Shown one piece after another: positions 3,945-59,930 of a DNA stretch of 64,000 nt (position 1 is the first letter of the stretch; every line of letters begins with the position of its first letter). The position numbers were made by a program, and so were the translations under genes. The DNA lies in NCBI RefSeq assembly GCF_964355755.1, contig NC_092679.1, positions 19,704,932 through 19,768,931 of the forward strand, written 5' to 3'. This DNA is from Antedon mediterranea. Taxonomy: Eukaryota > Echinodermata > Crinoidea > Comatulida > Antedonidae. Under the pieces are notes generated by a model, which saw nothing but the letters and a program-made list of their open reading frames with translations, did no database searches and was not told where the DNA came from.

Positions 3945-4096
3945 AAAACTCTGTCTACACTATCAAACTTTATGTGATGTGCCTCATATATGGACATGAT
4001 GATGTCATATCACTACCATATTTAAGCATATCACTACCATATATGGGCACATCACATTTTTTTGTCAAACTAGTTTGATAGTGTAGACAGAGCTTT
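3945..4096. mobile_element. Palindromic TA-flanked MITE, copy 1
   Basis: Inverted ends AAAGCTCTGTCTACACTATC flank a core with GTGATGTGCC, ATATGGACATGATGATGTCA and repeated ATCACTACCATAT. TA borders suggest a Tc1/mariner-type target duplication. Non-coding, about 152 bp. Confidence 0.85.
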
Positions 4097-16203: not shown

Positions 16204-16361
16204 TAAGCTCTCTACACTATCAAACTTAATGTGACAAACAAAAGTGATGTGCCCATATATAGACATGATGATGTCATATCACTACCATATTTGGGTATAT
16301 CACTACATTATTTTGGCACATCACATTTTTTGTTAAGTTTGATAGTGTAAACAGAGCTTTA
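16204..16361. mobile_element. Palindromic TA-flanked MITE, copy 2
   Basis: Same family as at 3945: ends AAGCTCTCTACACTATCAAA and its inverse at GATAGTGTAAACAGAGCTTT, with the ATGATGATGTCATATCACTA core. Confidence 0.85.
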
Positions 16362-19060: not shown

Positions 19061-20881
19061 TCAAGTTCAAGTTCAAGTTCAAATTTATTGTCAAATACAC
19101 AGTAAATGAAATTTGCCTTCCAAGGTTCAAATTACAATAAAAATAACAACAGTTAAAAACATACAATACTATACAATGGATAAGATAATATATAAGAAAA
19201 TATGCTATGTATAAAACATTATGAACAATATAAATATTAAAATACTATATAAAGAATAAAATATAAAACGTCTCAAGTTATCTTTTAAATTGCTTGTTGT
19301 ATTGCTTGATTGCACACGGAAGAAATGATTTATTATGACGCTCAGTCTTCTTAATTGAAGGAATCATCCTTCCGGATCTACTGAAATTTATAAAGTTAAA
19401 AAGAGGATGAGACTGGTCGTTAATTATACATTTTAGTTTTTTCTCCATAACCTTATCGCATATATCATGGATAGATGGGACGTTTGCACCTATTACCTTC
19501 TTAGCCATTTTGATTATTCTCTGTAATTTATTTGAGTTATTCTTAGATAAACTATTTAGCCATACAATACAGCAAAATGTTAATATGGACTGTATCATAG
19601 CCTGATGGAATAGAGACAGCGCATCTCTGCCAATCTTAAAGTTTCTTAATTTCCTTAAGAAGTACAATCTTTGGTTTGCCTTCGCATAGACTTTGGCAGT
19701 GTTGGCGTTCCATGAAAGTTTTTCATCTATCCATACTCCTAAATATTTATGTTCACTAGTTGTGCGGACATCATTATCTTTGATATTTAAAGGTATAAGT
19801 TGCCTCTTAATTTTACGAAAGTCAAACACAATTTCCTTTGTTTTATTTACATTAATACTTAGACAGTTCATATCACACCAGTTAATTATATTATTAACTT
19901 CAGTTCTATACGTGCTCTCATCATTGTTTACAATTAAGCCTGTGATACAGGTGTCATCAGCAAATTTAACTATTTGACATGATTCACTTCTAAGGTCGCT
20001 TGTATATAATGTGAACAACAATGGAGATAACACGCATCCCTGTGGGGCACCGGTGTTTGAAACAATGATATCAGACAAAACATTATCAATTCTAACACGC
20101 TGGGTTCTGTTTTTCAAGAAATCTCTGATCCATAGACAAACAAAAGGATTAACATTCATACTAACTAATTTATCAAGAAGTATGTTTGGTTTCATTGAAT
20201 TGAAAGCCGAAGAAAAATCTAAAAATAACGTCCTTACATATTGCCTAGGTTTATCCAAAGTTTCATAGATTGGATGCAAGAGGGTAGTTATTGCATCGTC
20301 GACACCTCTATTACTACAGTATGCAAACTGATTATTATCAACAAAAGGCAACGTTTCTTTAATCAATACATCTTTAAATAGCCTCTCAAAGCACTTTGTA
20401 ATAATTTGGGTTAGAGCAACAGGACGATAATCATTTAATATTTTCGGCTTAGGTACTTTATTTATTGGGGCTATTATTGAATACTTCCACATGCATGGGA
20501 CACAAGAAGAGCTTAACGACCAGTTAAATAATCTACAAAAGATAGGCGCAAGTTGTTTATAGCATGACTTTAAAATATTGCCAGTTAGTTTATCTGACCC
20601 AGCTGCTTTATTTGGCTTAACACCCTTAAATACTTTCTCAACTGAAAGCAGATCAAATTCAGGTACATCAGATTTGGTTGTATTTAACTCTAGGTTCAGT
20701 TTAACATCATTATCATTAGTATTATTAATTTGGTCATCATTATCAAATCTGTTAAAAAATATATTCAGTTTATTTGCAAAGTCCAATGGGCGGGATCCGG
20801 ATGGAACTATTGTTGTGTTCTGCCTTTTCGCGTTTCCAATAACTTTCTTTAATCCATTCCATGCTTGCTTGGGGTTACCGC
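19061..20881 (-). mobile_element. 5'-truncated LINE inserted in Helitron copy 1
   Basis: Minus-strand non-LTR retrotransposon. The 3' end is a (TTGAAC)n tandem tail at 19061-19080. The 5' end breaks off at 20881 inside coding sequence (GNPKQAWNGLKKVIGN is still readable before the listed ORF). TACT flanks both sides (19057-19060 and 20882-20885), a short target duplication. The interrupted Helitron sequence resumes exactly as in the uninterrupted copies. The endonuclease half is missing. Tandem-tail 3' end and RT style fit the CR1/L2/Rex1 side of LINEs; the clade is not certain. Confidence 0.88.
19278..20786 (-). CDS. LINE reverse transcriptase, intact C-terminal ORF
   Basis: A 502-residue open frame of a non-LTR retrotransposon. 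NKAAGSD at 59-65 and YRPVAL at 120-125 are standard finger-region motifs. FLDFSSAFN around D190 is motif A, GAPQGCVLSPLLF at 246-258 motif B and FADD at 275-278 motif C, so all catalytic aspartates are present. NVNKTKEIVFDFRK and KYLGVWID follow in the thumb region, and a basic C-terminal part ends NKQFKR. The frame remains open upstream to the truncation at 20881, so the start is not a native start codon. The apurinic-endonuclease domain is missing, hence the copy cannot be autonomous. Absence of any stop or frameshift suggests a young insertion. Confidence 0.93.
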   Translation of the reverse strand: MDFANKLNIFFNRFDNDDQINNTNDNDVKLNLELNTTKSDVPEFDLLSVEKVFKGVKPNKAAGSDKLTGNILKSCYKQLAPIFCRLFNWSLSSSCVPCMWKYSIIAPINKVPKPKILNDYRPVALTQIITKCFERLFKDVLIKETLPFVDNNQFAYCSNRGVDDAITTLLHPIYETLDKPRQYVRTLFLDFSSAFNSMKPNILLDKLVSMNVNPFVCLWIRDFLKNRTQRVRIDNVLSDIIVSNTGAPQGCVLSPLLFTLYTSDLRSESCQIVKFADDTCITGLIVNNDESTYRTEVNNIINWCDMNCLSINVNKTKEIVFDFRKIKRQLIPLNIKDNDVRTTSEHKYLGVWIDEKLSWNANTAKVYAKANQRLYFLRKLRNFKIGRDALSLFHQAMIQSILTFCCIVWLNSLSKNNSNKLQRIIKMAKKVIGANVPSIHDICDKVMEKKLKCIINDQSHPLFNFINFSRSGRMIPSIKKTERHNKSFLPCAIKQYNKQFKR

Positions 20882-21837
20882 TACTGTGAGTGTTGGTACT
20901 GTTAGATGTAATATAAAAATATATACAAATAAACTTTATTACTGTGAGTGTGGGTAGGCCCTACTGTTAGATTATAAACATATAATATACAAATAAACAT
21001 TCCAAATTATTTGGTTTAACCATAGAGGTATAGATTTAGATTTATGGGCCCCCTTGGAGAATAAACATAAATAGTATTGCAATGCTGTACAATACTGTTA
21101 AGGTATTAACCACTTTTGATCGCAATTTGAATTGCAAATTTCTTACTGTGAGTGTTGGTACTGTTAGATGTAATATAAAAATATATACAAATAAACTTTA
21201 TTACTGTGAGTGTGGGTAGGCCCTACTGTTAGATTATAAACATATAATATACAAATAAATAAACGTTATTACTGACAGTTGCTTCTCAACGTTTGTATTA
21301 ATTAATAATTTAAAAATATATAAACGTCGTAGTGGTGTATCGTTACATGTACTTTACTATTTCAATCGACTATGACAGTGAGAGTTTTAACAAAGTACCG
21401 TATTAAATCGTAAATGTTTTACTGTATTTAGTGGTATATTATTTATAGGCCTATAAAACATTAAAAACAATATTTCGTTACTGAGTGGATAAGAATATAT
21501 TTTAAAATGTTTCCTCTTTGTACCTATCTTCTTCCCCCATCCCTCAACCCTTAATGTTACATACAAAACACAAATTGGGTTTGTTTAAATGAGTCCAAAT
21601 AAAAAAATTTGACTCATTTTGTTTCTCTCTCGGAAGTAATTCCCAGGGTGCTAATTTTGGTTGACTACATAAATCATTGTGTATATTTATTCGTTTCTGT
21701 AAACGACAATGTATTATAGTCCTGCGGTACGTACATTTGAAATCTCCATTTTTTTCTCGCTGGAAATACTGTGTATTCGAGAACCATCTGTGGGCACGAC
21801 CTAGATGGTACGCGAGCGAAGCGAGCGTGCCATCTAG

Positions 21838-23384
21838 TCTATATATAAATTTACGTAAGGGCAAAATTCGGTAAATCGCGCCTTACTTTTAGAATTTTTA
21901 CTCGATGGTATGTAAAGTTGGTTCGTACTTTCAGTACTGATTTTAACCACCTGATGTAACCCTGTTTACTAATTAAATTAAGTTAGATAATTAGTTATTG
22001 ACGATTAAAACGAATTTAGGTTCAAAGATTTGCCCCAAATAGGGGTGTTTTCCGATCGTGGTATACACTGTCTAATGGATGTCCATCTTGAAAAATACCC
22101 GCCACAAAAATGCGAGAAGGCTTCGCATTTTTCTATCTCCTCCTACGATAATTGTTTTTAATAGCTGAAAACCGGTTGAACAGTTCGAGTACAGCATCAT
22201 AATGTTGAAGACAGGCCGATTTTCTTTAAAAAATACTATTTTGATACATTTAATATACGTTTTTACAAATGTATTGATTTGTGATGAATGGAACATTCCA
22301 AATTATTTGATTTAACCATACAGGTATAGATTTAGATTTATGGGCCTCCTTGGAGAATAAACATAAATAGTATTGCAATGCTGTACAATACTGTTAAGGT
22401 ATTAACCACTTTTGATCGCAATTTGAATCGCAAATGTCTTACTGTGAGTGTTGGTACTGTTAGATGTAATATAAAAATATAAACAAATAAACTTTATTAC
22501 TGTGAGTGTAGGTAGGCCCTACTGTTAGATTATAAACATATAATATACAAATAAACATTCCAAATTATTTGGTTTAACCATAGAGGTATAGATTTAGATT
22601 TATGGGCCCCCTTGGAGAATAAACATAAATAGTATTGCAATGCTGTACAATACTGTTAAGGTATTAACCACTTTTGATCGCAATTTGAATCGCAAATTTC
22701 TTACTGTGAGTGTTGGTACTGTTAGATGTAATATAAAATATATACAAATAAACTTTATTACTGTGAGTGTGGGTAGGCCCTACTGTTAGATTATAAACAT
22801 ATAATATACAAATAAATAAACGTTATTACTGACAGTTGCTTCTCAACGTTTGTATTAATTAATAATTTAAAAATATATAAACGTCGTAGTGGTGTATCGT
22901 TACATGTACTTTACTATTTCAATCGACTATGACAGTGAGAGTTTTAACAAAGTACCGTATTAAATCATAAATGTTTTACTGTATTTAGTGGTATATTATT
23001 TATAGGCCTATAAAACATTAAAAACAATATTTCGTTACTGAGTGGATAAGAATATATTTTAAAATGTTTCCTCTTTGTACCTATCTTCTTTCCCCATCCC
23101 TCAACCCATAATGTTACATACAAAACACAAATTGGGTTTGTTTAAATGAGTCCAAATAAAAAAATGTGTTTCTCTCTCGGAAGTAATTCCCAGGGTGCTA
23201 ATTTTGGTTGACTACATAAATCATTGTGTATATTTATTCGTTTCTGTAAACGACAATGTATTATAGTCCTGCGGTACGTACATTTGAAATCTCCATTTTT
23301 TTCTCGCTGGAAATACTGTGTATTCGAGAACCATCTGTGGGCACGACCTAGATGGTACGCGAGCGAAGCGAGCGTGCCATCTAG
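21838..23384 (+). mobile_element. Helitron, copy 2 of the head-to-tail pair
   Basis: It begins TCTATATATAAATTTACG directly after the CTAG of copy 1 and ends CTAG at 23381-23384 before a T. At 1547 bp it shows the complete element without the LINE: 5' part (to about 22290), two roughly 265-bp units (22292-22555, 22556-22816), 3' part and terminal hairpin. Identity to copy 1 is very high by eye, so the pair is recent or homogenised. No protein is encoded. Confidence 0.85.
22292..22816 (+). repeat. Two ~265-bp tandem units inside the Helitron
   Basis: Each unit runs from ATTCCAAATTATTTG through ATGGGCCYCCTTGGAG and GTATTGCAATGCTGTACAAT to a TATACAAATAAA end. The same pair is present in copy 1 (one unit split by the LINE), so the internal duplication predates the head-to-tail pairing. 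Confidence 0.85.
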
Positions 23385-25290
23385 TATAAAACAATTTAAA
23401 GTTATAAACCATACGCCCACCATATACTGCATACACTTCTGCATAAATAGCTATAAAGCAAAACAGACAGTTTATTATTTATCCTTTTGCACAACATCAG
23501 ATTTGTGTCATTTTTCTTCCTGATGAAAATTAAGTTTGTTGAAAAGAATTCAAATACATCCTTTTCTAATATTATACTTGCTGATAGATTTTACTTTTAT
23601 TTTTTGTCTTGTGTGTAAAGATTTTACTTTTAAGCAGAGACGTACATTACAAAGTTGGCTATGCCAAAACAAGACAGTAAACCGGCACGGTTTAATTGAT
23701 AAATTGATATAAAAGATATTAATAAGTGATTTAGAAAATTTAATATCCTATATCCCCTAGGTGTATTAGAGGTAAAGTTGATGCCACTTTAGTATCAAGG
23801 TTGGAATTCTTACCTCTGCTGACTGAAAAGAAAATAAATTAATTTTTATAGCACTACAAACCTTTCCAATTTAGGGGATAACCTATTAAGGAGACACTTT
23901 TTCATTATGAATGAAGTTTAGAGGTAATATTAATACTTTTTTTGCCATGAGAAAATCATATTATGGTGACAACAATTTGATTTGAATCCAGAACCCTGCA
24001 TTTGGCAAGCAATCATGAAAACCACGATGCTACATTGCCATAGGCCTACATGACCATACTGACAACATTTGTTTGTGAAGAGTTCATTGATTTGCACCAA
24101 TCAGTGCTGAACTATAACCTATGTTTTTCTTCTTAATATTGAAAATTTCTAAATTTAGGGAGGTCCTGTGCACGCCCGGGTGTATGTTATTGTTATGGTT
24201 CAGTGATTTTGTTTGATTTTTTGATAATGGAATAGCCCATGGGGGATGGGAACCCTGCTGGACACCCAAGCCTAGATAGCTGTATCCAAGGAGACATCTC
24301 TTTCTTTTTGGCTTGGGTGACTGGCAGGGAGGAGTGTTCTCCTTAAATAATAAATAATAAATGCTATAGAATTTGTAATTAATTAATTAAACTGCCATAA
24401 ACTGAGCCTGTTTTGCTTGCCTGTTTTGCTTGCCTGTTTATATTCCAATAAATGTTTGTTGTGAGATCAAATCAAGACGATTTACCTGGTATCATTATTT
24501 CACATGTCGACCGCTACCCCACACAAGTTAGGGAGGCCGGAGCCTTTTACATTATCCTATGAACTGAAGCTCAAAATGAATAAATGGTATATTATTATTA
24601 TATTATTATGTCACACCCGGAAATTGGGTGTATTTTATATATAACTCAAAGCTCAAAATGCGTAAATGGTCTATTATCATTATATCACTGTAGAAATCGT
24701 AGGTGTCATTACATGACCCACTTTTATTTAAATTTTCAACCAGCATGATGATATCATCAGAATAATATAAATGGTAACATTTGTCAAAGACAATAGCATA
24801 ATAAAATTTTGTAGGAAATTAAGCAGTGATAAGGAAGATGCGCTCTAATGAACATGACAAACTTCCAATTCAATATTTCATTTTTCTCAAGGCCCATACA
24901 CAATAATGTTCAACCAATTCTGGTAATTCCACATACATATTTTTTTATATAACCAAAAATAGATTGAATAACGAAATTAGGAAGGAACAGCCACAACATT
25001 CATCATTCATTCATTTGGCACCATTTTATGTGACTGAATTAGTATCGTGTCCTGACTTGATTCTATTTGATGTTTCATTTTAGCAATGACAACATAACTG
25101 CCAATAATCATTAGTAAAAACAACATTTGAATTACTTTAATTATGCTTATTAAAATTCAAAGAACTATATTTCAATTCAATTTTATTTGGTTAAACACAA
25201 TGGCCTGAAATAACATAATAATGGTAACAAGTAATGCAACACCAACTTGTTAGAGTTTTTTTTTAAAATCTGGATTGCATTTCTCATTAC
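23385..25290. other. Repeat-rich sequence, no gene seen
   Basis: A minus-strand tRNA-like SINE head is visible at about 23965-24055 (TAGCATCGTGGTTTTCATGA as A box, GGATTCAAATC as B box). At 24530-24690 two LINE-like tails share AAGCTCAAAATG and AATGGTNTATTAT. AATTCAATTTTATTTGGTTA at about 25170 looks like another LINE end. No coding frame. Confidence 0.45.
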
Positions 25291-39551: not shown

Positions 39552-39610
39552 GAACTGTGGCTTTGTGGTTAACATGATTGCCTTGCAATCCCAATGTCCA
39601 GGGTTCAATC
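39552..39610 (+). repeat. tRNA-derived SINE head
   Basis: TGTGGTTAACATGATTGCC resembles an A-box arm and GGGTTCAATCC is a B box about 45 nt later. The head is close to the one at 49657-49725. The B box is the first unit of the minisatellite that follows. Confidence 0.6.
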
Positions 39611-39877
39611 CTGACCTGGTCTATGATTCAATCCTGACCTGGTCCATGGTTTAATCCTGACCTGGTCCATGGTTTAATCCTGACCTGGTCCATGGTTTAA
39701 TCTTGACCTGGTCCATGTTTCAATCCTGACCTGGTCTATGGTTCAATCCTGACCTGGTCTATGGTTCAATCCTGACCTGGTCCATGGTTCAATCCTGACC
39801 TGGTCCATGGTTTAATCCTGACCTGGTCCATGGTTTAATCCTGACCTGGTCCATGGTTTAATCCTGACCTGGTCCAG
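39602..39877 (+). repeat. 23-bp minisatellite of 12 units grown from a SINE B box
   Basis: Twelve uninterrupted 23-bp units of the form GGTTYAATCCTGACCTGGTC plus YAT. The first unit is the B box of the SINE head just upstream. Units fall into GGTTCA and GGTTTA subtypes. Confidence 0.93.
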
Positions 39878-41790
39878 AGTTCAAATAATGACAGTTTCTA
39901 CTCTATTACTTTGATAGGGCAATGCCAAATCATTTCAATTTGTTGGTATTTCTTAGATTTTTCTGTAAATTCCACAATATCTTGACAAATGTAAGTTGCA
40001 ATACAGCCACCTAGAAATTCTTCAAATAGACTAGAGTACAGTAAGTAAGAAAAGAAGGAAGGCAACAATTAATGGACAGAGAAGACTGTCTACTATGAGT
40101 ACATCCGTGAACTTAGTTCAATAGACCAAATAACCACAATATAGTCATCCTTAAATATAATTAAAAATTTTCGTTTAAATTAAGTTTAAGTCACTATTTG
40201 TCAGGTTGTCCAATCAATTTGTGTTTTAAATCATAATAATTGATTACGATTAGCTAAATATGGTCATTTAGGTTAAGGATGACCACAGGGCATTAATAGA
40301 TGGATTCATTCAACATTTATTTCCATCAACGAACGCAGAGAAAGAGACAGACTACAGTAAAACCCCTATTAAGAGGACACCTTCGGGACACAAAAAAACA
40401 TGTTAACTCACTGGATACGGGTTGGATGTTGTGTTCAAACATATATTTCCCCTTGATTATTTCCCAGAAAAATGTTCCCCTAAAATATCTCCTCTGAAAA
40501 GGGTTGTGGTAGATTGGTTCTCTGTTATCAAATATTAGATTAGAAGATAAATGTTTTCTAATGGAGAGTTTAGTCTAAGTTATACGGCAGACCTAAGATA
40601 TAATAATTTTTCTATAAGAATTCACTAGAATTTGGGATTTTTTACACCCCTGACCCTGTCTGATGGCACCTATGACTTAGAATACCCTTTCCTTAGCCTA
40701 TTTCCTACACCATCTCCAAAACATGAGGCTGTTGTGGTAGGCCATATTGGTAACTTTGAACATGTATCAAACCTTGAAAATAAAAAAATCATCACTTGTC
40801 CTTGACTAAAACCTAGAAATAAAATCTAAGATAACAACTACTCATTAATCTCCCATAGTCAAGGTCAGTTTTTATTTAAAAGTTGGGGAAAATCAGACAT
40901 GGCTTACCCTTCAAAGACGAGGGCATAAAATTCATTAAGATCATCTATCTAACGAGGTTAACCCAAATCCCTATATTACAATGTACTTTATTTTCATTAT
41001 AAAAAATATAATTTAATTATGAAATTTATATAATTTGATCCTAACTAAATTCTGTCAAATTAATAAAATTAGAATACTGATAATTTTCTTTTTCGCGATT
41101 TATACACAGTAAACTGAAGATGGAATGAGGGATGCAAGGACCCCAAAACAATTAGGTTGTGCGTTGGTTTTCTAGTATTATAGAAGAAACCCTTATGGTA
41201 CAAAGTGTCCACTGAATAGGGGTATCATCTGAATAGGGATTGACCATAGTGTTAAAATATATATTGGCCACCATAATTTCAGTGTTCCCTTTAGTAGGGG
41301 TGACCCCTAAATAGGGATATCCCAAATGACAGATTCTACTGTACAATGATAAAACTTAACACTGACTATAATATTATGACTGTATACACCATAACCAAGG
41401 CAGTCAATTATTATTATTCAACAAGGGTTGAAAAGCAAAATAAACCCTCTGCACAAGTACTGTACCTAGAAATCATTGTGGTTAAATCGGCAATCACGTT
41501 TTTAGCAATGTTCAATGACTTGATGGGGGTGTCCTCCTTGACCCTGTCCTCCAAAAACTGGGGTTAATGCTCCAAATTCTATCGTTACATCCCGTACTAT
41601 CAACTTTTTTTATCTGCACGCTAGGAAGGGCAAGTAATATTGATATTGTTTGAAGATAACTATATCACTTTTTATTATATTTGATATGTTAAAATATGAT
41701 GAATAAACCAGCAGCATAATACAATTTCAACTAGTAGTATGCATGAAGCCATATGTGCTTAATCACATTTTAATATTTCAATATAAAACT
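39878..41790. other. Repeat fragments, no gene seen
   Basis: Two fragments of the AATAGGGG dispersed repeat are present: 40361-40510 (ACCCCTATTAAGAGGACACC) and 41170-41345 (CCCTTATGGTACAAAGTGTC). They account for the short open frames here. Confidence 0.5.
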
Positions 41791-49465: not shown

Positions 49466-49627
49466 TAAAGATCTGGCTACACTATCAAACTTTCTGTGAC
49501 AAAAAAATGTGATGTGCCCATATATGGACATGATGATATCATATCACTACCGTATTTGGGCATATCACTACCATATTTGGGAACACCACATTTTTTTGTC
49601 AAAATTGATAGTGAAGACAGAGCTTTA
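49466..49627. mobile_element. Palindromic TA-flanked MITE, copy 6
   Basis: TAAAGATCTGGCTACACTAT ... GATAGTGAAGACAGAGCTTT with the complete ATGATGATATCATATCACTA core and two CACTACCATATTTGGG-type units. Confidence 0.85.
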
Positions 49628-52030: not shown

Positions 52031-52200
52031 TAAAGTTCTGTCTATCAAACTAGTTTGACCAAAAGAAATGTGATGTGCCCAAATATGGTAGGGATATGAT
52101 CAAATATGGTAGTGATATGACATGATCATGTCCATTATATGGGCACATCACATTTTTCTTGTCACATAAAGTTAAGTTTGACAGTGCAGCCAGAGCTTTA
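52031..52200. mobile_element. Palindromic TA-flanked MITE, copy 7
   Basis: TAAAGTTCTGTCTATCAAAC ... GACAGTGCAGCCAGAGCTTT with CCAAATATGGTAGGGATATG core units, inverse orientation to copy 1. Confidence 0.85.
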
Positions 52201-53696: not shown

Positions 53697-53760
53697 CTAT
53701 TTCTCCTTCTGAATTTTCTGAAAAGCTTCAATCCGCTTATGGCCTGATCTCACATTCAGC
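53697..53760 (-). CDS. DHRS7: DHRS7-like last coding exon
   Basis: Sixty-four nt with acceptor TTGTTTTCTAG. The first base completes the tryptophan codon begun by either exon 6 version, then LNVRSGHKRIEAFQKIQKEK and TAG at 53699-53697. The basic tail resembles the ER-facing end of vertebrate DHRS7. I could not assign a poly(A) signal. Confidence 0.85.
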
Positions 53761-56700
53761 CTAGAAAACAAAATGGTAAATCAATACAGTAGTTAATCAC
53801 TTTAGGCTTTATTCTTGGTGTGTCAGATGAAGGGGATTCTGCTGTAATTTTGTTTCTTTTCAATTTCAATTTTGTTCGTTTCTGTCGTATTTATATGGTG
53901 TTGATTTCTATTTGTTTTGTAATACAGTATCACGAACTTGTGTAAAAACAATCAATATTGATTGAACGAGTTGTACTGCACATCAGTCTCGTGTCTAAAT
54001 AAAGTTTATATATATATATATATCCGATTGGTTTTTTTTTTGGACTCCTCGCTGTTTCTATACAAGCAAGCACTATGAGGAAGTAAACAGTCAAAAATGC
54101 CTATTAGTAAAATAACGGAGGAAATGTAGTATAGATTAATTATGCACCACCAATATAGTATATATGCAGTGGTGTAATGCAGGGGGAAAACGCCCCTGGT
54201 TTAGCATTCATAAGGGGCCCTCCAACACTGGGTAGTTGCATTGGGGTTGCTCATGCTCTGAGACTCCTTATTCCCCGAGGCTTCTGGGTTTAGACAGTAA
54301 ACTCTCATAGCCGTCACGCCACTATCAAAATGCAGATATGCTCACAGGACAGGATTAGGCACTCCACAACATGACAGGTAGTACTTTTTGTTTGGTTGTG
54401 TACTTGTGAAAACAGCATATCAATTCATCTAGGACAAATCAAGCCTGTAGGCATGTGGGTACGAGGGTTGGATCGAACAAAGCCCCCCCCCCCCCACTTT
54501 TCCTGAAGTGCCCATTGCAAGGTTGCGAGACCAGCAGCTGAATTGATGTTGAATAGGCTTAACCAGCCTAGCTTGTGATGATATTTGCTCTTTTTGTTGA
54601 AAAACAAACTCCATGTAAAAATCTGGGCTATGGACATGATTGCCACTCAATTTTAAGTCCTATTGTCGAACATTTCAATTATACATATGAATGCTATTTA
54701 CAACAAAGGACTTTCTAGTTCTACATAGATTGGATTTTAATGGACATGATTACTTTAGGATGATGGTAAACTTTAAAAAGGGGAGGCATATTTGTGAAAT
54801 ACAAGTTTAGCTAACTTGTAAATGTAAAACTTACCATGAAAATATAGAGGGCATGTATTGTGATACGTAGGTAAACAAAAGCACTGGTTGCTTGCTAATC
54901 CAGGCCTCGTGAAGATTATTGGCGAGAGCTACGGTCGTTAGATGAGCACAGCGCTCAGTCGGCATGACGGATCTTGGGTCTCGCTCCGCCAGTTGTAAAT
55001 CTTTTTTATATGTAGGCTGTAAAAAAAAATCTTACCAGGAAAGTAAAGAAGGCATGTATTGTGATAGGTAGATGAAAAGAAGCGCTGGTTGCCTGCCAAC
55101 CCAGGCCTCCTGAAGATTATTTGCCAAAGCTACGGTCGTTAGATGAGCACAGCGCCCTGTCGACATGATATATCTTGGATCTCGCCCGCCAAATTGCAAG
55201 TCACTCTTAAACGAAGGCTGTAAATCAAAATCAATTTAAAATAAAAAGTTAGAAAGAACCAAAAATGTTTGCTTTTTTAACGCCAATGGCTAGTACTAGT
55301 GTTCGCCTTTATATCTGCCTTGCAAACTCATCTTTTTCTTTTAAATTGTGCTCTCTCATACACCACGCCTTTGATTACTTACTACTGGAATTGGCGCATT
55401 ACAAATTCATATTATTATTATTATTATTATTAGTAAAATATGAAAACATCTTGATCAAATAGGAATGCACTTCAAGGTGTTTCTAATAGAGAGACATATA
55501 TTTTGCTGGTAGATTAAGACTTTAAACAGATGTATATATTTATAACACATCACAGATGTTCATTAGAATACCAGTAAATATGTATAAATATGAAAATATT
55601 ATTTAATTGCAATGTTTAAACTAATAAAGTTGTAAAGTTGATGGTAGAAAGAGAAATTTCACAGTATTATAGATTTTTAATGATCCTCAACCAGAACTTG
55701 TGCGTACTTATTATAAGGATCAAAATGCTCTGTTTGTCCGACCACAAATAACAAAAAACCCAACTGAAAAACTGAAAAAAAAAACAGAAAACAAATAATG
55801 GATGGATATTAGATACAAAATAGAAAAAAAGTAAATTAAAATATAAATTAAACCAAACAGATGGCATTATATGTTCTTCAGTGTGATAGGCAAATCTTGT
55901 AATATAGTGACACAGGTGGTGATAGTATTAGGTTAAGCTTTGGCCTATGATACAGGCATTACATGTGATACATAGGTTATTCTGCATCACAGTTACAGTA
56001 TAATGTATTTTTAAACCTAAAGGAAAATTACTTAAAAATGAAAATGCTGTAGGTATCAGTGGCTGGATCTCAATGAAGATACAAAATAAAATAGGCAAAA
56101 AGCTAAATCAAAACGATAAAAACAGCCAGAACAATTTGCAGAGGTTCTGGTCAACACACATCAGTTCAAGTGAGAATACTAAAGCTCTGTCCACACTATC
56201 GAACTAGTTTAAAAAAAAAGTGTGATGCCTATATATGTTAGTGATATGCCCAAATATGTTAGTGATATGCCCAAATATGGTAGTGATATGACATCATCAT
56301 GTCATATCAGCACATCACATTTCTTTGTCACATAAAGTTTGATAGTTTTTGGAGAGTCTTGTTTCGAAAGAGTTGATCGAATAATACAGATAATTACCTG
56401 ATCGATATCATCTCTCATGGCATTTGTGAACACATTTGAAACAACTGGACCAGGACATACATTAGTAATTGTTACATTTTGACGGTACACTTCTGCTCGG
56501 AGTGTATTGAAGTAACCCTGAAAATAAACATAGCACACTGTCTATTTTTTAAGTAAAAAATATATTATCCTGCAGGCCTTGTCTTTTCAAAATGATAGGG
56601 GTGCTACAAATTGCACTCCTCAATACATTCAGGGGTGCTGTTTGTATTTTTGTGTGTAGAAGTTTACCAAATTAAAGTGTGTTGTAAAACGCACTCCTCA

Positions 56701-59700
56701 AGGGCAGTTTAGGAGTGTTAGGTGAGTGATCGCACTCACTCGCCTTAAAAGACAAGGCCTGATTCTGCCGAATCTTTAATAAATTTGATAGAAATGTCTG
56801 CCCTGACAAATGGAGAATTCACTTTTTTTGTATGCATTTTATCTAAATAAAATACCATGACTTTATAAAACATGGCCAATCCATAGAGGGTGCAATAATT
56901 TTTCCAGAATACATTAAAACATTAACAGGCATGCCATGCTTTTTGCAAACATGTCACATGCCAATGTGCATTGTATAAAAGTTTACTGCCAATGCATTTC
57001 TTTGTCTTTAGTTAATCAAAATGGGTTTTTTTTTTTTTAAACAATCAAGAGAAATTGGACCTTTGCCAAAAATATCAGGAAACTAAGGTGACTAAAGCTC
57101 TTTTTATCAAAAAAGTGTGATGTGCCAAAATATGGTAATGATATGCCCAAATATGGTAGTGAGATGACATAATCGTGTCCATATATGGGCACATCACATA
57201 AATTTGATAGTGTAGACAGAGCTTTAGAATAGGTTAATTTTGTTAATTTGTTTAATTTTTATTAAAAGAACAGTAAAACAATTGAAAAAAAAATTATAAG
57301 GTATTAGATTTTGTTGTATTGTGGAGGCGAATATTGGTGATGTGTCAGTCAGATGTCGGGACTTTTCCTCATGAAAAAAAAAGAGCAACGCCACTCCTAA
57401 AGACTTGTTTAAAAGACTTTGTTTATGTAGAGCATCTTGTGTATATGTAAACTATTATATTCCAAAATTGCCTCAAAATATTCAATTTTTCTGTAATTTG
57501 GTTGAAATTATTAATTATATGTAAGGTTACCTGGATGGCATGTTTAGTTGCTGCATAAGAAGATGACAGTGTTGGTCCAAACTTGCCTGCTACGCTACTG
57601 ATGTTAACAATTTGACCAGATTTTCTGGACAGCATGTGCGGGAGGACAGACTTTGTTATTGAGACTGTACCAATGAAGTTTACATTAACAAGTTGTTGGG
57701 TCACTTCCAAAGTGGCGTTTACACCCAACGATCGCTGCGAGACTCCACCATTATTAATGAGGATATCAATCTGCAAATTGTAAAACAAAGAACAGCTTAA
57801 AGTCAGGTTCCCAAGGCAGAATAAACGTATCTCAAATGCAAAGATATATATAAATATAAAAATCAATATAAAACCGCTCCTGAAATCCATACATGTCGAG
57901 AAAAATGAAAATAAGAAAAATACATTCTTTACGTAAATATGTTATTCGTTTTAGCGATTTTTATTTTCGTTGGCTTGGGGAATTCTATTTCAGGTTCTCT
58001 AACGACTTAAAAAAAATAAAAAGATTTAGAAATATCATGAGGGATAAAACTCATCCTCTTTCCAATACTTTCCATGTTAGTTCTCAAAGCTGCAAATACT
58101 GATGAGAAAAATAAATACTGAATGCTATAATAAATCATTGATTCTTACTATACTACTGCAATCCTTCAATAATACTGTGTAATGTAATAATAACCCGGTT
58201 TATATTTTTGTGCCATTTGTTCTCTCTCTGTGTTTTTTTAAACATATTTTAGATTTTTATTATGATTGTGCTTGTCTTTTGCATTGAATCTTTGTATTAC
58301 TACAACCAAATGAATTTCCGCAAGGTTTGGGATAATAAAGTTTTATTGAATAGAAATGCTGGTTTGTGTAAATGATTTTGTTCTTTTTACTACCAGTATG
58401 AAAATGTCACTTAAGCGTGGTTCCCACTTACGACACAACACAAGGACGTAACGCAATGCAAGTGAATTGACCAATCACAAGCGATGGCTTATTCGCTTGT
58501 GATTGCTAACTGTCTATAACTTCGCTTGTCATTGGTTAAAATTATTGCGTTGCGTTTACGTCCTTGCATTACGTTCTAGTGGGAACCAAGCTTAAGCAAT
58601 AGCTTGCAACGCAAGGCTATTCAGGAGAATTTTAAAATAAAATCAGCACTTTTACCAATATGTCTATAACCCATCCTAATTTGTCCAAACGGTATAAAGT
58701 GTGAATAGTTCAAAATCACCTTTCCAAATCGGCTAATGACATCTTGCGCTAACTGACGGTGAGATTCAAAATCTGTAAGGTCAAGGGGCAAGATCCAAAT
58801 ATCCCCGCCCTTGGCACCGTGATCGTTAATGCAGTTATCTTGGACACGTTTAAGTTCACTTTCTCGTCTTGCGGATAGTACAATCTTGCATCCCTAATAA
58901 AGAAAAATAAATTTGTTTATTAAATTGTATTATAATAACACTCTGAAAACTTTTATGTTTGTCTTGTGGGATTGCCACCTTTACGAATACTGAATGAATG
59001 CGATTATGGTTATCCTTGGCAATTTGCCTAAATATATAAAAACAAAAACCAAAAACAAAAATATGATGTTTAAGCTGGGGCACCTTTATTTGGCTATGTT
59101 ATAGAAAAATGTGTTTTTCTGATGGCAGAATGTTAGATGGGTGGCCTGTGCCTTGGTGTAATATTGCGAGAGTACTCTTCCTGTATAGTTACCTTTGTGG
59201 CTAGTTTGTAGGCTATATGTTCTCCAATACCACCTGACGCCCCTGTAAGCCAAACCACCTTTCCACTTAAATTATCTGCAAAAAAGGTGAATTCTGATGA
59301 GGTATTAGGGTGCAAAACATAGGACATTCGTTCAGCACTTCATTTTACAATTTTTAGGCCTAATTGACTAGATTTTGCAGCTGAATATATTAACTGTTCA
59401 TCAAATCAATAGTATTATTAATTCGAAATAGGTTTTAAATGATTTTTTGTAAAATAAGTTTTTAATTAATTTTTAAATATCAAAAGTTGCTGATGTTGAG
59501 TTTGTACCAAGAAGAAGATGCAAAGTAATATAAAGTGCACAGTATGGAAACAGATAACAACGATTTGTCAGAAGAGCGAACGCATCAAGGAACAATTTGG
59601 CTGATGGATGGGAAAATAACGATGAAGATAATTTTTAAAAAGTAACATTCATGCTGTAATAAATTTCTATTGTCAAAAAATATACAATTAATTTAAATTT

Positions 59701-59930
59701 AAACATTTGTTTTTTACTTTACCTCCATCTGGATTGATTTTATCATAAAACATAAGAGTAAGATCTCCGTCAGATATCAGAATCAAGAAAAATGCAATGA
59801 TGAATGCTATGGTCATGAACACAGCAATAAAGTATACAAATGGCAACAGGAACAGCAGAATGAGAGATGCTAGGCACACACCACCAAGTTTGTAAACCAG
59901 TTGCATGATGAAATTAATTGTCTCTGTCCT
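53697..59930 (-). CDS. DHRS7: DHRS7-like short-chain dehydrogenase/reductase, 7 coding exons with a duplicated exon 6
   Basis: NAD(P)H-dependent SDR oxidoreductase of the DHRS7 group, which in vertebrates is an ER-membrane carbonyl/retinoid/steroid reductase. Coding exons on the minus strand are 59906-59723, 59275-59193, 58893-58720, 57770-57531, 56517-56398, then either 55217-55036 or 55016-54835, then 53760-53697 (TAG stop). All have GT-AG borders, phases fit throughout, and the product is 348 residues (human DHRS7 is about 340). Residues 10-47 are strongly hydrophobic (membrane anchor). TGASGGIG at 72-79 is the cofactor motif, NNGG is at 153-156, the catalytic set is S206-Y219-K223, and CPG at 248-250 starts the substrate loop. 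The C-terminus (LNVRSGHKRIEAFQ) resembles the vertebrate GKKRIENF tail. NNGG followed by SQRS favours DHRS7 over DHRS7B/C. A 3' splice site just upstream of the ATG (59931) implies a 5'-UTR intron. Product class is seen directly; substrate is unknown. Confidence 0.93.
53761..54834 (-). other. DHRS7-like intron 6 (A side)
   Basis: Contains a TATATA microsatellite at about 54008-54022 and a run of C at 54482-54494 with overlapping spurious frames. No third version of exon 6 is visible. Confidence 0.6.
54835..55016 (-). CDS. DHRS7: DHRS7-like exon 6, version A (transcript-distal alternative)
   Basis: Second version of the sixth coding exon, also 182 nt with the same phases. The acceptor is a run of T ending TTTTACAG and the donor is CATG|GTAAG. 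It encodes PTYKKDLQLAERDPRSVM, RCAHLTTVALANNL, LHEAWISKQP and SQYMPSIFS. The ISKQP variant is closer to the vertebrate ISEQP than is VGRQP of version B. Only 19 nt (55017-55035) separate it from version B. Both versions are fully open and have no damage, so neither looks like a pseudo-exon. Confidence 0.9.
55036..55217 (-). CDS. DHRS7: DHRS7-like exon 6, version B (transcript-proximal alternative)
   Basis: One of two tandem versions of the sixth coding exon. It is 182 nt, starts in phase 0 (acceptor GATTTACAG) and ends after two bases of a codon (donor CCTG|GTAAG). It encodes 60 residues starting PSFKSDLQFGGRDPR, then RCAHLTTVALANNL, LQEAWVGRQP and SQYMPSLLS, matching the region before the vertebrate DHRS7 C-terminus. 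Compared with version A, about two thirds of residues are identical, with no gaps, and a 27-nt stretch around GCTCATCTAACGACCG is unchanged. It joins exon 7 to give a tryptophan codon. Confidence 0.9.
56012..56135. repeat. Interspersed repeat 'B', intronic copy
   Basis: AAAGGAAAATTACTTAAAAA and GCAAAAAGCTAAATCAAAAC match the copy at 30985-31228 with small indels. It lies in the intron between exons 5 and 6 of the DHRS7-like gene. Confidence 0.7.
56180..56350. mobile_element. Palindromic TA-flanked MITE, copy 8 (intronic)
   Basis: TAAAGCTCTGTCCACACTAT at the left, three CCAAATATGKTAGTGATATG-type units, and a decayed right end (GTTTGATAGTTTTTGGAGAG). It ends about 48 bp from exon 5 of the DHRS7-like gene. 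Confidence 0.8.
56398..56517 (-). CDS. DHRS7: DHRS7-like coding exon 5 (PG motif)
   Basis: Encodes residues 228-267 (120 nt, 40 codons, phase 0). It runs from GYFNTLRAEV to DDIDQ and contains NVCPGPV, the conserved PG motif before the substrate-binding loop. The acceptor is TATTTTCAG and the donor is TCAG|GTAATT. Confidence 0.92.
56573..56761. mobile_element. hAT-like MITE (intronic)
   Basis: Inverted ends CAGGCCTTGTCTTTT (left) and AAAAGACAAGGCCTG (right), 189 bp, with GTGCTACAAATTGCACTCCT inside. The CAGG..CTTG start fits hAT elements, but no clean 8-bp target duplication is visible. It lies 55 bp upstream of exon 5. Confidence 0.7.
57093..57226. mobile_element. Palindromic TA-flanked MITE, copy 9 (intronic)
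   Basis: TAAAGCTCTTTTTATC ... AATTTGATAGTGTAGACAGA with two CCAAATATGGTAGTGA-type units and GACATAATCGTGTCCATATA. Intron 4 of the DHRS7-like gene. Confidence 0.8.
57531..57770 (-). CDS. DHRS7: DHRS7-like coding exon 4 (catalytic exon)
   Basis: Encodes residues 148-227 (240 nt, 80 codons, phase 0). It contains NNGGVSQRS, the catalytic serine in NISSVAG and the YAATK active-site pair. The acceptor is CAATTTGCAG and the donor is CCAG|GTAACC. This single exon holds the whole catalytic triad. Confidence 0.94.
58190..58360 (+). mobile_element. LINE 3'-end fragment (intronic)
   Basis: CCAAATGAATTTCCGCAAGG followed by TTTGGGATAATAAAGTTTTA and a TTGAATA tail is a common LINE 3' terminus. Opposite strand to the DHRS7-like gene. 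Confidence 0.5.
58415..58591. mobile_element. TTAA-flanked palindromic MITE (intronic)
   Basis: GCGTGGTTCCCAC (left) and GTGGGAACCAAGC (right) with TTAA on both sides (58411-58414, 58592-58595). The arms AAGGACGTAACGCAATGCAA and GCAATAATTTTAACC-type sequence keep pairing inwards, and CACAAGCGA recurs inverted. The TTAA duplication suggests piggyBac-type mobilisation. It lies in intron 3. Confidence 0.8.
58720..58893 (-). CDS. DHRS7: DHRS7-like coding exon 3
   Basis: Encodes residues 90-147 (174 nt, 58 codons, phase 0 at both ends). It begins GCKIVLSARRESEL, which holds the arginines typical of NADP(H)-preferring SDRs after strand beta-2, and contains PLDLTD, the usual DLTD-type adenine-contact motif. 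The acceptor is TTTATTAG and the donor is AAAG|GTGATT. Confidence 0.92.
59193..59275 (-). CDS. DHRS7: DHRS7-like coding exon 2 (cofactor-binding motif)
   Basis: Encodes residues 62-89 with the TGASGGIG Rossmann motif. The acceptor is a T-rich tract ending TTTTTTGCAG and the donor is AAAG|GTAACT. The 83 nt plus the single carried base give 28 whole codons, so the next exon begins in phase 0. Confidence 0.92.
59723..59906 (-). CDS. DHRS7: DHRS7-like coding exon 1 (membrane anchor)
   Basis: Encodes residues 1-61 and the first base of codon 62. The ATG at 59906 begins MQLVYKLGG and opens a hydrophobic stretch to about residue 47, followed by a DGDLT segment. The donor reads GGAG|GTAAAG. Upstream in the transcript, a pyrimidine-rich stretch ends in AG at 59931, 24 nt before the ATG, so translation starts inside the second transcript exon. 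Confidence 0.9.

Follow-up and report, generated by a model that had tools for sequence, protein, structure and literature searches.

Two probable mutually exclusive versions of exon 6, 19 nucleotides apart, in a DHRS7-like gene of the crinoid Antedon mediterranea

Introduction

For mutually exclusive exons that are kept apart by steric interference, a limit of ~50 nucleotides (nt) from donor to branch point has been given (PMC5740500, PMC7969005). Potential steric interference is present in 57 of 629 human mutually exclusive exon clusters (9%) (PMC5740500), and exons 4a/4b of OGDH form a tandem pair in a dehydrogenase gene, in which the branch points are too near the upstream donor (PMC7969005). 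Here, a tandem pair is described in a DHRS7-like gene, which lies on the minus strand of a 64,000-nt stretch of DNA (the window) from the crinoid Antedon mediterranea (NC_092679.1, positions 19,704,932 to 19,768,931). The exon 6 position of this gene is doubled, and the two versions, 6B and 6A, are probably genuine mutually exclusive exons that arose by tandem duplication and whose exclusion is enforced physically.

DHRS7 has been called an orphan enzyme (PMC4673999). More recently, the vertebrate enzyme has been connected with the reduction of alkyl/acyl-glycerone phosphate, i.e., of ether-lipid precursors (PMC13200781), and with the interconversion of 5-HETE and 5-KETE, an inflammatory eicosanoid pair (PMC11839141).

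Anatomy and Reading Frames of the Twin Exons

Repeat comparison and translation place exon 6B at 55036..55217 and exon 6A at 54835..55016 of the minus strand, each 182 nt long and encoding residues 268-328 of its respective form, the A form being isoform X1. Between them lies a 19-nt spacer, GTAAGATTTTTTTTTACAG (55017..55035, minus strand), which holds both the donor of B and the acceptor of A and reads, from 55035 to 55017, GTAAGA, nine T and ACAG. Both copies are entered in phase 0 and left in phase 2, and each has its own AG and GTAAG, in agreement with the original prediction of two 182-nt versions, 19 nt apart, with identical phases, own splice sites and intact frames. Exon and spacer together make up a direct repeat of 201 nt (54817-55017 versus 55018-55218, 80% identical), which Tandem Repeats Finder recovers as the same array (54826-55232, period 201, score 546). 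As in tandem-duplicated mutually exclusive exons, the two are adjacent and homologous, with the same length and phase and 80% identity, and the splice sites of each copy look functional, including a branch-point match for each. Tandem duplication as such is not rare in the window, where 13 direct-repeat families with copies of at least 80 nt within 2 kb were counted, the exon-6 pair included; the exon-6 repeat stands out by its fit to the exon borders.

Exon 6 is preceded by 801 coding nt and each copy is 2 mod 3, so that the use of both shifts the frame, as had been predicted. Among the translated splice products, B alone and A alone each give 348 amino acids (aa), the joining of B to A gives a frame-shifted product of 353 aa, of which the final 26 are aberrant, and the omission of both gives a frame-shifted product of 274 aa with seven aberrant residues at its end. 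The frame argument alone would favor exactly one exon per productive transcript. If the spacer is retained, the product has 328 aa and stops right after Trp-328. An in-frame TAA stands directly behind the TGG codon at both exon-6 donors (55032-55034 and 54831-54833), hence any intron retention would terminate the protein after Trp-328.

Overlapping Splice Signals

The acceptor of B is preceded by CTAAC at -32, with no intervening AG. For the acceptor of A, the sole yTnAy match within -15 to -50 is TTTAC at -28, which lies in exon B and hence upstream of the B donor; the adenine of this candidate branch point, placed by the consensus scan at 55044..55044 (minus strand), stands eight exon bases before the end of the exon. 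As the whole spacer has only 19 nt, the distance from donor to branch point would be <50 nt, or negative, wherever the branch point falls, and the pair is thus within the range of steric interference (less than ~50 nt from donor to branch point), the position of the branch point being predicted. Since the B donor and the acceptor region of A overlap, the joining of B to A is very unlikely by the published splicing limits. According to the proposed mechanism, U1 at the B donor and U2AF/U2 at the A acceptor would compete for the same nucleotides, such that B could not join A, and double or zero inclusion would additionally break the frame; the frame penalty reinforces the exclusion. The choice between the exons would then follow the relative strength of the splice sites, together with trans factors. 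As to RNA secondary structure as a possible selector (competing stable pairings of the docker/selector type), the local 491-nt fold is no better than shuffles (z 0.78, 76 of 100 shuffles at least as stable). We infer that the spacer is unusually tight, no survey of spacer lengths having been found in the literature among the matches listed.

Divergence and Constraint

The copies differ at 37 of 182 nt and are identical at 42 of 61 residues, and the 19 residues that differ correspond to the predicted "about a third." The swapped part lies after the PG motif, which is present as CPGPV in exon 5, upstream of exon 6, as had also been claimed. Between A and B, dN is 0.18-0.19 and dS 0.43-0.48 by four methods (non-synonymous and synonymous divergence, respectively), which corresponds to a dN/dS of ~0.4. 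With 37 random substitutions, the expectation is ~24 residue changes, and a count of at most 19 arose in ~3% of simulations; the bias against residue change between A and B is therefore real but mild. In an alignment of 50 sequences, namely the database protein of the A form (P0001) and 49 of the 119 other homologues listed, A retains all 15 and B 14 of the 15 family-conserved residues (positions conserved in at least 45 of the 50 sequences). The differences between A and B concentrate on family-variable columns (p=0.0017), and those between A and the protein of Anneissia tend likewise, so that the A-B pattern is ordinary constrained divergence, with no sign of unusual selection. A stretch of 28 nt is fully identical between the exons (55128-55155 versus 54927-54954), synonymous sites included (permutation p 0.037).

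Origin and Age of the Duplication

Compared with the flanking introns, the spacer agrees at 14 of 19 positions with the opening 19 nt of the one that follows A, and at 13 of 19 with the closing 19 nt of the one that precedes B. The latter intron ends in ATTTACAG, and the former carries ATTTACA at nt 12-18; had a duplication run across this 7-nt repeat, the unit would measure precisely 201 nt and the spacer 19 nt, with both donor and acceptor in it. The pair would thus go back to a single tandem duplication of a 201-nt unit (the exon and 19 nt of flank), probably across ATTTACA, a motif that would have occurred both where the upstream intron ends and at nt 12-18 of the downstream intron. Such an event would have supplied each copy with an acceptor and a donor in one step, while leaving the copies only 19 nt apart. 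Neither presumed source flank has a T run as long as that of the spacer, and the A acceptor appears to have been improved after birth by this longer run.

In the swapped segment, the distance between the two copies is similar to that of each from Anneissia: A and B share 42 of 61 residues, and A-Anneissia and B-Anneissia share 40 and 41, respectively. The tree pairs A with B (support 85/85) inside a crinoid group (97/95), but groupings of Anneissia with A or with B are not rejected (p-AU, from the approximately unbiased test, 0.087 and 0.33); the counts of shared sites are near a star (7:5:6). Polarized by Anneissia, the 19 differing sites comprise five at which A keeps the shared state, six at which B does, and eight unresolved ones, so neither copy is simply ancestral. 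From these sequence comparisons, the duplication seems to have occurred within crinoids, at about the age of the split of Antedonidae and Comatulidae (two comatulid families), before or after it. A second crinoid or B-form protein was not found, a three-row C-terminal profile having given one match among 39 candidates, which was 33% identical to the query.

Alternative Explanations

It is unlikely, although conceivable, that only exon A is used, B being a duplicate that is silenced or little used, while the "isoform X1" label reflects other variation. The only database product seen is the A form, A is nearer to more homologues, and B has four glycines (277, 278, 288, and 308) at positions where A has none. 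However, exon B has an open frame, AG/GT and CTAAC as a branch-point match, keeps 14 of the 15 conserved residues and departs from A at family-variable sites. Neutral decay would rarely leave it in this state: of 20,000 simulations with 18 random substitutions, only 4%, for either copy, preserved an open frame, AG/GT and 14 or more of the 15 conserved residues, and with 25 substitutions a copy stayed as intact in 0.8%.

Considerably less probable is a frequent retention of the 19-nt spacer, which would give a 328-aa form ending in ...LLSW, with the last 20 residues gone and exon A serving mainly as 3' sequence. B, spacer and A together make 383 nt and keep the phase, and the in-frame TAA follows directly after Trp-328. 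This would leave the conserved coding of A and its identity with isoform X1 unexplained, however, and the same TAA after A's own donor points to a by-product of the donor sequence. An assembly artefact, in which an allelic or duplicated stretch was misjoined, would suit the tandem layout within a repeat-bearing window, but is hardly credible, as 20% nucleotide divergence with codon-level constraint is unlike allelic or sequencing noise, the exon-6 stretch occurs at only one genomic location, and the A form is present too in a second contig sequence of different length (25,047,721 versus 25,042,131 bases), presumably another version or haplotype of the same chromosome.

The genome protein searches score the best candidates only, hence their counts are lower bounds. 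Among these best-scored candidates, exon B (61 residues) matches only the two exon-6 places in the 354-Mb genome (E<=10), whereas the whole protein matches at least 35 places (E<=0.001), namely the eight exons of the DHRS7-like gene and 27 places elsewhere, which are at most 51% identical and presumably represent other SDR genes.

Several points weigh against mutually exclusive use of a tandem duplicate as proposed here, the first being that the splicing of exon B into RNA is predicted from the sequence. Among the 49 homologues, 28 are nearer to A, eight are nearer to B and 13 are equally near to both, and at I307, which 46 of the 49 carry, B has V, so that B is slightly less family-like than A. 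The yTnAy match behind the candidate branch point is a loose consensus, and a further AG at -16 within the spacer could misfire. The account of the birth draws on short matches, the repeat having only 7 nt and the flanks being rich in T, and the 28-nt identity may reflect conversion or splicing signals common to both exons and can let the pair appear younger than it is. The Anneissia japonica protein (P0002) has no isoform label and forms a one-member cluster, which is a weak hint that the pair is absent there; the pair is known from one species. Finally, the 90% cluster of P0001 has a second member, which could be another variant or come from another source.

Consequences for the Enzyme

If both exons are chosen alternatively, two full-length enzymes would result that differ at 19 residues. 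In the predicted fold, compared by VIA-align with 11beta-HSD1 and 17beta-HSD13, the swapped segment corresponds to the lid, the final strand and the C-terminal side of a fold like that of 11beta-HSD1, and the 19 differing residues are modeled in the substrate lid, around the final strand and in the C-terminal helices. The two forms are probably two versions of the enzyme's substrate-binding end, and the swap most likely tunes the lipid substrate or the placement at the membrane. As the lid and the C-terminal side alone are exchanged and the rest is identical, the pair would be a natural experiment on the substrate-setting residues of DHRS7. The 19-nt spacer would be a minimal case, in which exclusive splicing could arise complete from one duplication, with no regulator needed for exclusivity. 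More tentatively, and with somewhat less than even confidence, the locus may be an extreme of steric exclusion, with one donor placed downstream of the next exon's branch point but ahead of its AG, the same 19 nt acting as a 5' splice site in one case and as a 3' splice site in the other, coding sequence of one exon doubling as the branch region of its rival, birth in one step across a 7-nt repeat, and a DHRS7 substrate switch restricted to (some) crinoids.

The DHRS7-like Gene and Its Surroundings

The gene spans 59906-53697 of the minus strand and has seven coding exon positions; its exon borders come from direct reading of splice sites and translation of the sequence, with GT...AG at all borders. 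The coding lengths are, in order, 184, 83, 174, 240, 120, 182 (B), 182 (A), and 64 nt, and the intervals between successive exons are 447, 299, 949, 1013, 1180, 19, and 1074 nt. Coding exon 1 (59723..59906) starts with the ATG, ends in phase 1 and encodes a predicted N-terminal helix; exon 2 (59193..59275) encodes TGASGGIG, which we take to be the cofactor motif, and is followed by exon 3 (58720..58893). By alignment, exon 4 (57531..57770) carries S206, Y219, and K223, presumably the catalytic Ser-Tyr-Lys residues, which are invariant across the 50 aligned sequences. Exon 5 (56398..56517), with the CPGPV motif, ends in phase 0, and exon 7 (53697..53760) is the last coding exon, with the stop codon TAG. 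All of these lie on the minus strand. The product contains the SDR domain PF00106 (E 1.4e-52) and its top two homologue matches, both spanning 100% of the query, are named DHRS7-like, which bears out the predicted gene identity. Members of the DHRS7 family are expected to be enzymes of the endoplasmic reticulum membrane that act on lipid or ketone substrates; for the present product, the model predicts an N-terminal helix at residues 2-44.

The A-form product is identical at 348 of 348 residues to P0001, "dehydrogenase/reductase SDR family member 7-like isoform X1 [Antedon mediterranea]." An "isoform X1" label of the NCBI implies at least one further annotated isoform. The original prediction that mutually exclusive exons of DHRS7 are undescribed is upheld for the literature on DHRS7, mutually exclusive or tandem exons, SDRs, sea urchin and crinoid exon duplication, where no exon-6 alternative of DHRS7 was found among the matches listed, mostly by title and abstract start; public gene annotation, however, may already hold both forms. 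In the available part of PMC7352703, DHRS7 appears only in a table of variants of the 3' untranslated region.

Elements with 21-nt subrepeats (like ATGCCCAAATATGGTAGTGAT, on either strand) occur at 4009-4055, 16275-16324, 49540-49581, 52080-52120, 56225-56290, and 57118-57173, two of them in introns of the DHRS7-like gene, and may represent a family of miniature inverted-repeat transposable elements with varying repeat number. Further features of the window are a 560-aa open frame at 19278-20960 (minus strand) with a reverse transcriptase domain (RVT_1, E 2.4e-26), which resembles a long interspersed nuclear element, a tandem array of ~12.6 copies of a 23-nt unit with 93% matches (39596-39884), and two near-exact repeat pieces ~1.55 kb apart (20882-21841 and 22440-23388), whose 99-100% identity points to a recent duplication or insertion.

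Comparison With Known Systems

With DHRS7 (SDR34C1), the product shares similarity over its full length, at 71% with the protein of the crinoid Anneissia and at 41-47% with the remaining 48 proteins of the alignment. The human clusters with potential steric interference resemble the present pair in a donor-branch point distance of <50 nt and in an exon length that is not a multiple of three, which adds a frame penalty (PMC5740500), while the gene discussed here is from a crinoid. In OGDH 4a/4b, the branch points are found in the intron that separates the exons, in human 25-41 nt beyond the donor (PMC7969005), whereas the exons described here are only 19 nt apart and the best branch-point match precedes the donor and falls within the other exon; the enzyme class is also another one. 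Tandem mutually exclusive exons are already known as a kind, which the present locus extends to this gene and this animal, adding the tight overlap of the splice signals.
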